In this document: positions 20,516 through 27,054 of the stretch, piece after piece
Layout: every line of letters begins with the position of its first letter
How positions within the stretch are numbered: position 1 is the first letter of the stretch
Source: Candidatus Acetothermia bacterium
GTDB lineage: Bacteria > Bipolaricaulota > Bipolaricaulia > Bipolaricaulales > Bipolaricaulaceae
Assembly (NCBI GenBank): GCA_024653305.1
Contig: JANLFW010000008.1
Location: forward strand, 1-64,000
DNA: 64,000 bases
Reading direction: 5' to 3'
Position numbers and translations under genes: made by a program
The notes under the pieces: model-generated
Database searches by the model: none
Seen by the model: the letters and a program-made list of their open reading frames with translations, nothing else
Told to the model about the DNA's origin: nothing

Positions 20516-20544
20516 ATCCTACCCGGTGTCCAGAGCCCCGTCAA
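20516..20544 (-). promoter_or_regulatory. Promoter of rpsI-rpmE
   Basis: On the minus strand TTGACG (20544-20539), 17-base spacer, TAGGAT (20521-20516). The -35 box overlaps the scpB stop codon, so ribosomal-protein transcription can be uncoupled from the smc operon upstream. Confidence 0.65.
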
Positions 20545-21086
20545 CCTGCGGGCTCGGGGGAGGGGCCGTGGTGGGAAGCGGGCGCCCCGGAGGGCCTCGG
20601 GGTGTCCGCCTCCAATTGGGCCCGGAGTTCGTCCAGCGTGGCCACCCCGAAGTAGCGGAGGAGGGTAGGGGTTACGGACAGGACTTTCGTGGGCCCTTGG
20701 TCCTGGGCCTGGACGAACCCGCGGGCGACGAGGTCCCGGATATGACCGTAGGCGCGCTGCCCCCGGAGCTTCACCACCTCGCACTGGAGGATGGGGGTCT
20801 TCCAGGCGATGACGGCCAGGGTACGCAGCACCGGCTCGGGGATGTCCTGGTGCGGGGCAAGTGGCCGGACCCGCTCCGCCAATTCCCCTTTAACCCGCAG
20901 CGTGTACCCGCCACCTTCTTGGGCGAGCTCGAGCCCCCGATCCGGGGAGATGAGGTCGGCGGCCAGCGCCGCGAGCGCCGTCCCCACCACCTCCTCCGCG
21001 AGCCCCAGGGCCTGGGAGAGCCGGCGCAGGGAAAGGGGGCGGTCGGCCACGAACAGGGCCGCCTCAACCAGGGCCTTGGCGTCCAT
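20541..21086 (-). CDS. scpB: Segregation and condensation protein B
   Basis: A 181-residue ScpB with two winged-helix domains. The N-terminal part (ALVEAALFVADRPLSLRRLSQAL) and the central AVIAWKTPILQCEVVKLRGQRAYGHIRDLVARG are the family signature. It ends in a Pro/Ser-rich tail of about 20 residues. It dimerises and binds the ScpA kleisin in the SMC condensin that loads near the origin and aligns chromosome arms. Its start overlaps scpA by 23 bases. Confidence 0.92.
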   Translation of the reverse strand: MDAKALVEAALFVADRPLSLRRLSQALGLAEEVVGTALAALAADLISPDRGLELAQEGGGYTLRVKGELAERVRPLAPHQDIPEPVLRTLAVIAWKTPILQCEVVKLRGQRAYGHIRDLVARGFVQAQDQGPTKVLSVTPTLLRYFGVATLDELRAQLEADTPRPSGAPASHHGPSPEPAG

Positions 21087-21777
21087 CCGGGACCTCGATC
21101 AGGATCTCCCCCAGGAACTCCTCCTGGAACACCCGGATCTTGCCCTGGGCATCGAGGTGGAGGAGCTCAAGGAACCGGGCCACCCGCTCCTTGGGATCCC
21201 CGTCCGGGGCCACGGCCTGGAACGGGATCACCCGCTGGCCGTTGACCAGGGTCAGGAGGTACCTGAGGAGCCGCACCACCCGGCGCGTGAACGGTTCCCG
21301 CTCCACGTCCATCCCCATGTCCTCCGCGGTCAGGTTCGCCGCGGGGCGGGAGGAGCGCCCCTGCTTGGCCAACGCCGCCTTGAGGGACCGGCGCAGGTCG
21401 GCGAGCGTAGGCCGCGACCGCGGCTGCCGGCGGATCGGGAGGCACAGCTCCGGGGCGATGTACACTGGGGCCGGCTCCTCTTCGTCCGCGATCGCTATCT
21501 CCGCGGTGATCTCGTCCAGCGCCTCGGCCATCGTCGGCGGCGCCCCGCCGTCCCGAACCCAATCCGACTTCATGCGCAGAAGCACGGAGCTGGCCAGCAC
21601 CATCCGCCCGGGAACGGCCAGCTCCAGGTCCCGTTCGGCCACGTACGCGCGGAACCGGCCCACCAGCTCCACCAGGTCCAGGGTCCACGGGTTGAGGTCG
21701 CGGGTCACCTGGCGGAACACCTCCTCCCAATCCGCCTTCACGAACCGCTGCGGCTCAAAGGCCTCAAGCTCGGGCAT
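21064..21777 (-). CDS. scpA: Segregation and condensation protein A (kleisin)
   Basis: A 237-residue ScpA kleisin bridging the two SMC heads. The N-terminal segment FRQVTRDLNPWTLDLVELVGRFRAYV is divergent but aligned. MVLASSVLLRMKSDWV is the conserved helix, and the C-terminal winged helix contains FLELLHLDAQGKIRVFQEEFLGEI. It overlaps smc by 14 bases and scpB by 23 bases, consistent with stoichiometric coupled synthesis. The N-terminal SMC-neck-binding helices should be compared with the shortened SMC partner. Confidence 0.88.
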   Translation of the reverse strand: MPELEAFEPQRFVKADWEEVFRQVTRDLNPWTLDLVELVGRFRAYVAERDLELAVPGRMVLASSVLLRMKSDWVRDGGAPPTMAEALDEITAEIAIADEEEPAPVYIAPELCLPIRRQPRSRPTLADLRRSLKAALAKQGRSSRPAANLTAEDMGMDVEREPFTRRVVRLLRYLLTLVNGQRVIPFQAVAPDGDPKERVARFLELLHLDAQGKIRVFQEEFLGEILIEVPDGRQGPG

Positions 21778-24241
21778 CGTGGATCAGCTCCATTCCCACC
21801 ACCTCGGACGCCCCGTCGCGCATGGTCACCCCGTACACCCGGTCTGCATAGTGCACCAGCTCCTCATTATGGGAGATCACGATCACTTGGGAATCCCGCG
21901 CGTACTCCCGAAGGAGGTGGGCCAAGCGCTCGGAGTTGGCCCGGTCCAGGGCGGCGTCCACCTCGTCGAGGAGGTAGAACGGGGCCGGCCGGCCGGCGGC
22001 CAGGGCCAACACGAACGCGATCGCCACCAGCGTCTTCTCCCCACCGGACAGGGCATCGAGCAGGCGCGGCTCCTTGCCCGGGGGCCGGGCCTCGATGAGG
22101 AGCCCGGACCCGATGTTCCCCGGCTCGGTCAGGGCGAGCCGGGCCTCCCCGCCCCCGAAGAGATACCGGAACAGGCGGTCGAGCTCCTGCGACACCGTCT
22201 CCATCGTCGCGAGGAACTTCTCCCGCTTTTTGGTCTCGATCTCGCCGATGAACCGTTCGATCTCGTGCTTTTCCGCCTCCAGGGTCCCGACCCGCTCTTT
22301 CAGGAGCTGGAACTCCGCGAGGAACGCGTCGTACTCCTCGATCGCCCGTAGGTTCACGGCCCCGAGCTCGGCGATGCGGCGCTCGGCCTGGCGCAGCCGG
22401 GCCTGGAGCACCTCCGGGGACCCGGGCTCGCCCCCGTCGGGGGGCGGGGCCACCTCCCCCAGCGCGGCAAGCTCCCCCTGGATCTCCGCGGCCTCCCGCT
22501 CGCACCGGGAGAGCACTGCCCGCCGCCGCTCCAGCTCCCGGTACGCCTCTTTCCGGCGCTCCCGCAGGGCCTGGAGCTCCCCTTCCTCGCTGGTCCGGGC
22601 CGCCCGGGCTTGGGCCACCGCGCGCGACCGCTCCGCGAGCTCGGCCTCGGCGGCAGTGAGCCCCGCCGACAGGCGCTCCACCTCCTGGCGTAGACGGGCC
22701 AGGTCCTCCTCTCGCTTGCGGAGCTGGGCCTGGCGAGGGGCGAGGTTCGGCCCGGACCGCTTGCCCGGGGCCCCGCCGACGATCGCCCCACCCCGTTCCA
22801 GGAGGTCCCCGTCCACGGTTACCACCCGGACCCCGTCCACGGTCCGCACCGCCTCCAGGGACTCGGCGACCAAGGTATCGCCGAGCACGTACAGGAGCGC
22901 CGGCCGGACCTCGGCCGGGCAATCCACGAACTCCATGGCAAGGCCCAGCACCCCGGGGAGGCGGGTTGCCGAGCGGGCCTTGGCCGAGACGGCAGGCGCG
23001 CTCAATCGATCCAGGGGCAAGAACCGGGCCCGTCCGATCCCGTTCTCCTTGAGGTACCGGACACACCGGAGGGCGAGGTCGCGGCTTTCCACCACGAGGT
23101 CGTGGACATGGCCGCCCAGGGCGGTGGCCAGGGCGAGCTCCATGCCCTCCCGTGGGCGGGCCAGCTCCCCAAGTGTGTTCAGCACCCCGTCCCATTTCAG
23201 GTCCAGGATCGCCGTCACCGCGGGGGGCGGGCGCTCGCCCTGGCTCAAGAGATGGGCCATGTCGGCGATGGTCTCCTTGAGGGAGGCGATCTCCCGCTCG
23301 GTGAGCTTGGCTTCCGCCTCCTTGGCCGCGAGCTCCCCGCGCAGCCGCTCCACTCGGCGTACCAGGTCGGTGGTCTCGTCGTCCACGGCGGGCTTGGCCT
23401 GGGACATCGTCCGTTCCCGGGCCTCGATCTCCTGGTCCAGGCGATCCACCTCCGCGGCGAGGGAGGCGATCTCGTCCCGGGCGCGGTCCGCGTGGACGAG
23501 GGCCTTGTCCAGCGCCGCCTTGCGCGCCTCCCACCGCCGCCACTGCAAGGTCGCGGCGAGCTTGTCCCGCTCGGCGATGAGGGCCTGGTATTCCAGGGCC
23601 GCCTCGCGCTGGCGATGGAGTTCGCTCAAGCGCTGACGACGCTCGGCGAGGAGGATGCGGCTCGTGTTCAGCCGCTCCTTGACTTGCCCGAGCTCCTCGA
23701 TCGCCTTGACCTTGCGCTCCTCGTAGGCGGCGATGCCGGCTACTTCGTCCAGGATCTCCCGGCGGCGGCGCGGGGACCGCTCCAGCACGTCGATGACCAT
23801 CCCCTGTTCCACGATGTGGTAGCCGCTTGGGTCGATGTGGGCCAGGGAGAGGAGCTGTTCCACCTCGCGGGCCGAGCAGACGCGGCCCTGGAGGCGGTAG
23901 GTGGAGGCGGTGCGGTTGATGCGGCGGGACAGGATGACCTCCTCCGCCGGGGCGGGGAGGAGCTCGTCGAACATGCCGGACCGGTTGTCGAAGACCAGTG
24001 TGACCTCGGCCTCGGCCACCGGCTCCCCGCGTGGGGGGACGTGGAGGAGATGCTCGACCCGTTCCGCGCGCAGGGCCTGGGAACGCCGCCCCATGACGAA
24101 CGTGAGCGCGTCGAGGATGTTGGACTTGCCGGACCCGTTCTCGCCGACGATGGCGGTGAACCCGGGGTAGAAGTCGATCGTCACGCGGCGGCGGAACGAC
24201 TTGAACCCGTGGATGGTCAGGCGTCGGATCGCCGTGGTCAT
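21764..24241 (-). CDS. smc: SMC chromosome segregation ATPase, short-armed
   Basis: An 825-residue SMC, far shorter than the roughly 1150-1200 residues usual for bacterial SMC. Walker A is GENGSGKS (33-40), the Q-loop region lies near 146, the ABC signature is LSGGEK (731-736) and Walker B is FYLLDEVDAALD (D759, E760). A hinge occupies about 340-500. The coiled-coil arms are only about 165 (172-335) and 175 (505-680) residues, roughly half normal. Heads and hinge are complete and there is no frameshift, so this is an intact compact SMC rather than a truncation. It is coupled to an upstream XRE gene by ATGA and to scpA by overlap. Confidence 0.92.
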   Translation of the reverse strand: MTTAIRRLTIHGFKSFRRRVTIDFYPGFTAIVGENGSGKSNILDALTFVMGRRSQALRAERVEHLLHVPPRGEPVAEAEVTLVFDNRSGMFDELLPAPAEEVILSRRINRTASTYRLQGRVCSAREVEQLLSLAHIDPSGYHIVEQGMVIDVLERSPRRRREILDEVAGIAAYEERKVKAIEELGQVKERLNTSRILLAERRQRLSELHRQREAALEYQALIAERDKLAATLQWRRWEARKAALDKALVHADRARDEIASLAAEVDRLDQEIEARERTMSQAKPAVDDETTDLVRRVERLRGELAAKEAEAKLTEREIASLKETIADMAHLLSQGERPPPAVTAILDLKWDGVLNTLGELARPREGMELALATALGGHVHDLVVESRDLALRCVRYLKENGIGRARFLPLDRLSAPAVSAKARSATRLPGVLGLAMEFVDCPAEVRPALLYVLGDTLVAESLEAVRTVDGVRVVTVDGDLLERGGAIVGGAPGKRSGPNLAPRQAQLRKREEDLARLRQEVERLSAGLTAAEAELAERSRAVAQARAARTSEEGELQALRERRKEAYRELERRRAVLSRCEREAAEIQGELAALGEVAPPPDGGEPGSPEVLQARLRQAERRIAELGAVNLRAIEEYDAFLAEFQLLKERVGTLEAEKHEIERFIGEIETKKREKFLATMETVSQELDRLFRYLFGGGEARLALTEPGNIGSGLLIEARPPGKEPRLLDALSGGEKTLVAIAFVLALAAGRPAPFYLLDEVDAALDRANSERLAHLLREYARDSQVIVISHNEELVHYADRVYGVTMRDGASEVVGMELIHDARA

Positions 24242-24569: not shown

Positions 24570-25466
24570 TCAGCCACCGCCGCCCATGCCCACCAAGTAC
24601 AGGACCAGGGCCGCGATCCCCGCGAGGAGGGCGATGGTGGCCAGGCCCTGGGCCATGCCCAGCGCCTCCTGCACCGCCTTCACGTCCAGCCCGTCCACCG
24701 TGGTCTCCACCGTGCTCAATCGGGCCTCGTGTTCATCCACCTTGGCCGTGAGCGCGCCGAGGGCGGTCTTGGTCGCCGCGAGGTCGGCGGTGAACCCGCC
24801 GAGGGCCTTCTCGAGGCCCGCGACCTTCTCCCGGTTGTTCTCAATCTTGATCTGCAGGGCCTGGGCTGCCTGTTCCAGGGCCAGCACCCGCCGCTGCAGC
24901 GACCCGATGTCCTGGGCCTCGAGGGCGGCGATGCGGGTCTCGTGATCGCTGGCCTGGCGGGCGATGTCCGACATCTTGTTGCCCAGCTCGGCGATCGCCG
25001 CCATCAACTGGTTCTTGGTCTTCTCCAAGTTGTCGGCGAGGAGGGCGATGCTCGCGGCCAGCTCCTGGTCGGTCTGCTTGCCGGCCTCCACATCAGCCCG
25101 GAGCTCGCCGATCCTGGCCCACGCCTCCTCCAGCCGTGCGGACAGCCCCTCCACCCCCTTGGCGAGGGCGGGGACCCGAGCGCACACGTCCTGGAGCTGG
25201 AGGATCCTGGCCTCGGCGTCCTTGAGCTGCACCGCGAGCGTCCGGTATTTGGCGAGGATGTCCTGATCGGCGGCGTTCAGCGTGGACACCGCCCCCTTGA
25301 GCTCGGAGATCAGCGTGGCGAAGAACTCCGTGACCTGGCTGAACGCGCGTTCCATGGCGGCGATCTCTTCTGTACTCGGCGGGAGCTGGACCCCTCCTTG
25401 GGCCAGCACCACCCCGCCGAGGAGGATCGCCCCCAGCATCATCCCGCTCACCCATCGCTTCATCAT
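24570..25466 (-). CDS. Secreted coiled-coil protein with C-terminal membrane anchor
   Basis: A 298-residue protein I cannot assign to a named family. ATG 25466 follows AAGGAGGT and opens a signal peptide (KRWVSGMMLGAILLGGVVLAQG). From about residue 35 to 270 the sequence is almost entirely heptad-like coiled coil with repeated A/L/E patterns. The C-terminus is one hydrophobic segment (GLATIALLAGIAALVLYLVG) ending in four glycines. It would be a periplasmic rod of roughly 35 nm fixed in a membrane by its end. The layout resembles Omp-alpha, the rod-shaped spacer of Thermotoga, but no sequence relation can be claimed. It has its own terminator and is divergent from gltX. Confidence 0.75.
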   Translation of the reverse strand: MMKRWVSGMMLGAILLGGVVLAQGGVQLPPSTEEIAAMERAFSQVTEFFATLISELKGAVSTLNAADQDILAKYRTLAVQLKDAEARILQLQDVCARVPALAKGVEGLSARLEEAWARIGELRADVEAGKQTDQELAASIALLADNLEKTKNQLMAAIAELGNKMSDIARQASDHETRIAALEAQDIGSLQRRVLALEQAAQALQIKIENNREKVAGLEKALGGFTADLAATKTALGALTAKVDEHEARLSTVETTVDGLDVKAVQEALGMAQGLATIALLAGIAALVLYLVGMGGGG

Positions 25467-25619
25467 CGTTGACCGTACCTCCTTTCCGGCGTCCGGACGC
25501 CCACGGTAGCCTGGATCACCGTGCCCTACACGGCCCGCTGGGCGTCCGGGGAGGGGGATTTGTCGTCCCCGGGGAGGACACGTGTCTGGCTCCGCGGCGG
25601 GTTCCCGGTGGCACGTCCG

Positions 25620-25625
25620 TATAAT
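25620..25625 (+). promoter_or_regulatory. -10 box of gltX, near-leaderless
   Basis: A perfect TATAAT ends 10 bases before the gltX ATG, so transcription would start about 3-4 bases before the start codon. No convincing -35 box and no Shine-Dalgarno sequence is present. Confidence 0.65.
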
Positions 25626-25635
25626 CCCGAGGACC

Positions 25636-27054
25636 ATGGCCATCCGGGTCCGTTTCGCCCCAAGTCCGACCGGGGAGCTCCACGTGGGCGGTGCCCGTAC
25701 TGCCCTCTACACCTGGCTGTGGGCCCGTCAGGAGAGGGGAGTTTTCATCCTGCGCATCGAGGACACCGACCTTGCCCGGTCCGAGAGGCGGTTTGCGGAG
25801 GGGATCCTGGATGCGCTGCGCTGGCTGGCGCTTGATTGGGACGAGCTTTACTTTCAATCGGACCGGCTGCCCCTGTACCGCCGGTACGTGGAGGCGCTCC
25901 TGGAGAAGGGCCTCGCCTACCCGTGCTTCTGCCCCCCGGACGAGCTCGCCGCCCGCCGTCGAGAGCGGCTCGCGCGCGGCCAGATCCCCGAGTATGACGG
26001 GCACTGCCGTCGGCTCACCGAGGCCGAGCGGGCGCGGTACCTGGCCGCCGGACGCCGCCCGGCGATCCGGTTCCGCGTCCCCGAGGAGGCCAAGGCCACG
26101 GCGTTCTCCGACTTCCTGCGCGGCGAGGTCCGGTTCCGCCGCCTGACCACCGGGGACTTCGTGATCCAGAAGTCGGATGGCACCCCCACCTACAACCTGG
26201 CGTGCGTGGTGGACGACCACGAGATGGGCATCACCCACGTCCTGCGGGCCGAAGATCATCTCTCCAACACCCCGAAGCAGATCTGGCTGTACGAGGCGTT
26301 CGGCTGGGAGCCGCCCCGGTTCGGGCACCTGTCGATGATCCTCGGCCCGGACCGGAAGAAGCTCTCGAAGAGGCACGGGGCGACGTCGGTGGAGGCGTTG
26401 CGGGCCCAAGGGTTCCTCCCTGAGGCGGTGGTGAACCACCTCGCCCTCCTCGGGTGGTCCCCGGGGACGGGGCAGGAGATGTTCACACGGGACGAGCTCG
26501 TGGGCGCGTTCTCGCTCCGCCAGGTCCAACTTCCTCCCCAGGTGTACGACCTCCAAAAGCTCCGCTGGCTCAACCGCCAGCACCTCCTGCGCCTCCCCCC
26601 GGAGGAGCTCCTCGCCCGGGCCCGGCCGTTTCTCGGGGCGATCGCCGACGGGGTTCCCGTGGCACGGCTCGCGGCCGCACTGGACGCGGTCCGCCCTTCG
26701 GTCTCCACCTTGGCCGAGCTCGCCGCGCACCCCGATCTTGCCGTGCTGCTCCGGCCGCCGGATCTCCCCCCCGAGGTCCGGGCCGGGCTCGCCGCCGCGG
26801 CGGCCCCGCGGATCCTGGAGGGTATCCTCGCCCGCCTGCCCCGGTCCCTGGGGCGGGACGACCTGCGGCCCTTGGTGCAGGCGGTGGCCGACGAGGTCGG
26901 GGTACCCCGCACGCACGTGTTCCACGCCCTGCGCCTCGCCCTCACCGGGCGCTCGGAGGGGATGGAGCTCGCCCTGGTCTGCGCCGTCCTCGGGGCGGAC
27001 GAGGTACGGGCCCGGCTCGAGCTGGCCCTTGAGGGCGAAGGGCGACACGGGTAG
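25636..27054 (+). CDS. gltX: Glutamyl-tRNA synthetase
   Basis: A 472-residue class I synthetase charging tRNA-Glu. RFAPSPTGELHVGGARTAL carries the HIGH-type motif (HVGG), and KKLSKRHG is the KMSKS-type motif. The Rossmann fold with RIEDTD and the C-terminal anticodon-binding helical domain follow. Whether it also charges tRNA-Gln (non-discriminating, needing GatCAB) cannot be seen here. ATG 25636 begins the conserved MAIRVRFAPSPTG; an upstream in-frame start is blocked by the perfect -10 box. Confidence 0.95.
   Translation: MAIRVRFAPSPTGELHVGGARTALYTWLWARQERGVFILRIEDTDLARSERRFAEGILDALRWLALDWDELYFQSDRLPLYRRYVEALLEKGLAYPCFCPPDELAARRRERLARGQIPEYDGHCRRLTEAERARYLAAGRRPAIRFRVPEEAKATAFSDFLRGEVRFRRLTTGDFVIQKSDGTPTYNLACVVDDHEMGITHVLRAEDHLSNTPKQIWLYEAFGWEPPRFGHLSMILGPDRKKLSKRHGATSVEALRAQGFLPEAVVNHLALLGWSPGTGQEMFTRDELVGAFSLRQVQLPPQVYDLQKLRWLNRQHLLRLPPEELLARARPFLGAIADGVPVARLAAALDAVRPSVSTLAELAAHPDLAVLLRPPDLPPEVRAGLAAAAAPRILEGILARLPRSLGRDDLRPLVQAVADEVGVPRTHVFHALRLALTGRSEGMELALVCAVLGADEVRARLELALEGEGRHG

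Follow-up and report, generated by a model that had tools for sequence, protein, structure and literature searches.

Can an SMC protein with coiled-coil arms of only about half the usual length serve as the chromosomal condensin of a bacterium? The question is raised by a locus in the window, a 64,000-nucleotide stretch of DNA from a Candidatus Acetothermia bacterium of the phylum Bipolaricaulota, in which all the genes discussed here lie on the reverse strand. The smc gene (21764-24241) starts at an ATG and encodes 825 aa in an unbroken reading frame. A sequence-only reading had taken the product to be an SMC of this length with complete heads and hinge, and the protein is indeed of this form. 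It matches the Pfam families SMC_N (E = 9e-66) and SMC_hinge (PF06470; 2.4e-26 over residues 352-464), and its ABC-ATPase head is divided between the N and C termini, with the Walker A motif (GENGSGKS, residues 33-40; 24122-24145), the ABC signature (LSGGE, residues 731-735; 22037-22051) and the Walker B motif (FYLLDE, residues 755-760; 21962-21979) all present. The key residues of Walker A, the whole signature, and D759 and E760 of Walker B are invariant across 31 aligned Bipolaricaulota sequences. The hinge domain (residues 351-490; 22772-23191) is of equal length in the same 31 sequences and, on the evidence of the PF06470 match, the structural models and a heptad test, lies between two antiparallel coiled-coil strands.

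The smc gene overlaps scpA (21064-21777; 237 aa) by 14 bp, and scpA in turn overlaps scpB (20541-21086; 181 aa) by 23 bp. The scpA product is a kleisin identified by PF02616 (6.9e-6), by an archaeal ScpA (25% identity, E = 2e-9) and by ScpA chains in the PDB, whilst the scpB product, a KITE protein, matches PF04079 (8.6e-34) and scores above the cut-off of TIGR00281. The locus thus encodes the kleisin and KITE partners that define an SMC-ScpAB condensin, and the proposal that the short-armed SMC is accompanied by its own scpA and scpB is upheld in the form of an overlapping operon. On the other side of smc is a conserved neighbor (24570-25643, with the start probably near 25472), predicted to encode an exported coiled-coil protein that has a hydrophobic segment at its C-terminal end. 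A similar same-strand protein (24-92% identity) is found upstream of smc in those relatives with enough flanking sequence; its coiled-coil bias may inflate the weaker of these matches, and its family matches are only weak coiled-coil ones.

We measured arm length as the distances between conserved anchors in a single MAFFT alignment, using as yardstick the 1186-aa SMC of Bacillus velezensis, taken as having the 344-aa arm of the published analysis (Burmann et al. 2017, PMC5344682). The anchors are separated by 177 residues on the N-terminal side and 140 on the C-terminal side, versus 347 and 324 in the B. velezensis protein, so that the N strand is shorter by 170 residues and the C strand by 184. 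The resulting mean arm of ~167 aa agrees with the 165-175 residues of the sequence-only reading and falls far below the typical ~340 aa; fully coiled, it would span roughly 23-25 nm. The comparison across the phylum that this reading had called for gave a uniform result, with 39 distinct intact Bipolaricaulota SMCs (818-848 aa, from families f1, f2, f5 and f7) all having arms of 165-180 aa (165.5-179.5). The arm is therefore naturally short, as had been suggested, but is not the oddity of a single gene, being shared by every intact Bipolaricaulota SMC found. Two records titled Thermotoga sp. and Neomarinimicrobiota (L043 and L047) also contain a typical Bipolaricaulota short SMC, and their labels are probably wrong.

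Among the 21 control SMCs from other phyla and archaea in the alignment, 18 have arms of 331-368 aa, two are mildly short, and that of Mycoplasmopsis, at 238.5 aa, coincides with the published mode of 238 aa. The earlier statement that bacterial arms normally exceed 300 residues is correct for the majority of bacteria, although there are also natural modes at ~238 aa (PMC5344682). The two mildly short controls (L126 in G118, 1009 aa; L127 in G177, 1050 aa), whose arms measure ~266 and ~281 aa respectively, lie between the modes. In a scan of ~190 genomes outside the Bipolaricaulota, the SMC hinges among the matches listed sit in open frames of at least 1044 aa, bar one fragment at a contig end; rare short SMCs may occur in other phyla, the scan covering the matches listed. 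A seeming 859-aa SMC in another phylum (G114) was discarded, its gene being cut by the end of the contig.

Coiled-coil and structure prediction, also proposed in the sequence-only reading, give a consistent picture of the arms. The N-terminal strand is predicted to comprise residues 170-332 (23246-23734), with a helix (170-272), a break (273-288; 23378-23425) and a second helix (289-332), and the C-terminal strand residues 501-626 (22364-22741), with helices at 501-549, 554-594 and 609-626. Heptad periodicity is detected on the N strand at 176-270 (p=0.008) and 289-332 (p=0.0002) and on the C strand at 501-545 and 554-594 (p=0.0002 for each), and the arm segments have a hydrophobic periodicity of 3.3-3.5 residues that is absent from head and hinge controls. 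Two AlphaFold2 models, one per family group, concur in the joint, in opposed mid-arm breaks and in coil lengths. The mid-arm break is the low-confidence portion of these models, being non-helical with low pLDDT in both, and is a site of indels; its elbow-like appearance is a prediction, and it may be an elbow. The joint region (residues 595-632; 22346-22459), composed of a loop, a short helix and a VN motif, is modeled as a helix-loop in both cases. The best Foldseek matches of head and joint among prokaryotic SMCs are to 5xei, the archaeal head with joint of Pyrococcus yayanosii, and the head-proximal joint is thus predicted to have been kept.

The distribution of the complex follows family lines. 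In the SMC-bearing families, 74 of 81 genomes have ScpB, most of the gaps being attributable to incomplete genomes; in families f3, f4, f6, f8 and f9 (for example G038, G043 and G068) it occurs in 0 of 19. These 19 genomes, ten of which are at least 90% complete, also have no strong SMC match. Twelve of them were sampled and contain SMC_N-type heads, those named being RecF- and Rad50-like, and no SMC hinge was present among the matches listed for members of these families, from which SMC-ScpAB as a whole seems to be naturally missing. In 100 Bipolaricaulota genomes we searched for ParB using two families and for parS permitting one mismatch, and the genome studied here and nearly all of the others contain neither; the SMC is accordingly not of the kind that goes with ParB and parS in the same genome. 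With both essentially absent, loading of this SMC would have to be ParB-independent. The TIGR00180 cut-off was reached by only two of the 100 genomes (G018 and G011), and a single perfect parS in a third (G053) may be contamination.

The Bipolaricaulota SMC has heads of archaeal type. Amongst NCBIfam models it scores 630 bits against SMC_prok_A (TIGR02169), below the equivalog cut-off of 729, and 582 against SMC_prok_B (TIGR02168), just above the cut-off of 567; the shortfall against TIGR02169 arises because the model spans full-length arms, and a half-arm protein forfeits those bits. Trees built from heads plus hinge and from heads alone place the Bipolaricaulota SMCs in one clade (support 100/99), which in both trees adjoins archaeal SMCs and one bacterial sequence (support 100/100), the archaeal sampling consisting of two archaeal sequences and one bacterium with an archaeal-type SMC. 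The ScpA sequence and the smc-scpA gene order resemble a haloarchaeal locus. Archaeal-type SMCs (TIGR02169; Pyrococcus, Natronorubrum) are similar in heads, hinge, joint and an overlapping scpA after smc, but the Natronorubrum arm is 340 aa long rather than 167 aa. Transfer from an archaeal source would be the simplest reading of these sequences, on thin archaeal sampling. A full-length SMC from another bacterial phylum (L118 in G290) groups with the archaeal ones, and archaeal-type SMC in bacteria thus extends beyond the Bipolaricaulota.

The full length of SMCs in archaea and other bacteria suggests that the arm was shortened in the Bipolaricaulota rather than lengthened elsewhere. The ~177 aa absent from each strand amount to 1.95 times the 91-aa period reported for working arms in B. 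subtilis (PMC5344682). Loss of an integral number of coiled-coil periods, which the sequence-only reading had wished to see checked, is therefore compatible with the measurement but unproved, because the domain boundaries are uncertain by ~10 aa. Arms of 165-180 aa lie close to where the B. subtilis comb would have its next lower tooth. MAFFT distributes the deletion gap over several places in the arm. In local matches to TIGR02169 the head-proximal part has no gap, but elsewhere the matches overlap one another, and a hinge-proximal position of the deletion is only suggested by these alignments.

The published comparison (PMC5344682) describes modes of prokaryotic arm length at 238, 341 and 515 aa, with possible minor modes at 163 and 423 aa, and finds arms to be functional in B. 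subtilis at 253-267, about 321-373 and 407-435 aa; its main text reports no viable B. subtilis construct below 253 aa. An arm of ~167 aa is thus outside the range there shown to work in the tested host. The 165-180 aa of the Bipolaricaulota arms fit the 163-aa minor mode, for which the main text gives no lineage and assays no natural short-arm protein, and the length class is in this sense not wholly new, having been glimpsed as a possible mode in 2017. As far as the literature searched extends, the lineage, uniformity, archaeal type and ParB-free setting of the short-arm SMC are new, and we found no paper on SMC in Bipolaricaulota. Compared with bacterial Smc-ScpAB of the B. subtilis type (TIGR02168), the three subunits and the domain order are alike, but the bacterial arm is twice as long and the bacterial system has ParB/parS, which the Bipolaricaulota do without; in B. 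velezensis, moreover, smc lies beside rnc and ftsY rather than sharing an operon with scpA and scpB. The 978-aa SMC of Mycoplasma, with an arm of 238.5 aa, is also short by nature, but is ~70 aa longer per strand and has bacterial-type heads in the tree. The suggestion that the locus offers a natural experiment is apt insofar as the arm is short in a protein where length matters, but the experiment is confounded because the SMC is of archaeal type and the phylum lacks the ParB-parS used in the B. subtilis tests. The rules on arm length come, in B. subtilis, from measurements of relocation away from parS, and so need not transfer.

A short gene in a metagenome-assembled genome could reflect a frameshift, an internal deletion in one strain or an assembly collapse, the first and last of which the sequence-only reading had named as outcomes that would overturn it. 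Beyond the nature of the source data nothing favors such an artefact, and it is excluded for practical purposes by a full-length copy with 98% identity in a separate record (L032) and by the equal length of the 39 intact sequences from independent assemblies, including relatives at 70-75% identity. The other outcome so named, a second full-length SMC, was not encountered as far as the assemblies reach: the genome itself (95% complete) has one SMC hinge only, and no second hinge is present in the SMC-bearing Bipolaricaulota genomes listed, which include the single-contig G005 (99% complete) and G015 (96%). In one genome (G077) the SMC is split into two entries (L129, L130), but a run of N interrupts it and the C-terminal part lies distant on the scaffold, probably through a scaffolding fault. 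Alternatively, the arms might have shrunk neutrally during genome reduction, their length being free of constraint. The genomes are small (1.59 Mb here and 1.2-2 Mb in most relatives), which speaks for this reading, but SMC-bearing relatives of 2.4-2.9 Mb (G059, G053) have equally short arms. Five coiled-coil segments (96, 40, 43, 46 and 80 residues) have identical lengths in 31 of 31 aligned sequences at identities down to 38%, whereas linker length differs by as many as 24 residues. Indels in these 31 sequences are confined to the linkers flanking the hinge, the mid-arm break (18-26 residues) and the joint loop; whilst the gap positions are chosen by MAFFT, the segment sums are real regardless. 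The difference in total length between family f1 (818-831 aa) and families f2, f5 and f7 (842-848 aa) likewise sits in the linkers adjoining the hinge. Because coil length has been fixed since the shortening, it indicates selection on arm geometry, and we regard neutral shrinkage as improbable.

A further alternative is that the gene now encodes a repair protein or one resembling RecN or Rad50, the chromosomal condensin role being gone. Such a change of function would accommodate an arm shorter than those for which function was reported in B. subtilis (PMC5344682), and SMC and ScpB are missing from some related families of the class, implying that the complex is dispensable there. However, the gene forms an overlapping operon with scpA and scpB, SMC and ScpB co-occur by family, the protein has a complete SMC hinge rather than a zinc hook or none, and SMC models score far above those for RecN or Rad50; this alternative too is unlikely. 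A defence-system role was considered on the basis of PADLOC matches and rejected, the best of these being generic SMC/AAA similarity. We conclude that the lineage-wide short-arm variant of SMC-ScpAB is real, and infer its function in vivo from sequence. The protein is very probably the sole chromosomal SMC, of archaeal-type descent, acting with ScpA and ScpB as a condensin-type SMC-kleisin-KITE complex that performs the usual cycle in a half-length ring independently of ParB.

In the cycle that we envisage for this condensin-type complex, two SMCs would dimerize through the hinge and ScpA would bridge their heads. ATP binding would then engage the heads and open the arms, and hydrolysis would lead to DNA capture or loop growth, with loading presumably proceeding without ParB. 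A ring about half as long would handle less DNA per cycle; this smaller step is our own suggestion, and the relevant passages of a molecular-dynamics paper do not tie step size to arm length. The starting point would have been an archaeal-type SMC ancestor, which lost ~177 aa per strand on the branch leading to the SMC-bearing Bipolaricaulota. We put forward more tentatively, as a possibility somewhat short of an even chance, that the phylum-wide, ParB-free, archaeal-type SMC-ScpAB with ~167-aa arms folds DNA as a functional motor, with an arm length one tooth below those of the B. subtilis comb (~260, 345, 420 aa), and is the shortest natural chromosomal SMC to be assigned to a lineage.

It is an open question how SMC motors use ATP hydrolysis to move DNA and what restricts function to particular arm lengths. 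A half-length arm kept apparently without ParB loading would allow the periodic length rule, and the sizes of step and ring, to be measured apart from parS targeting, and the related families without SMC or ScpB would provide a natural loss of the complex for comparison.
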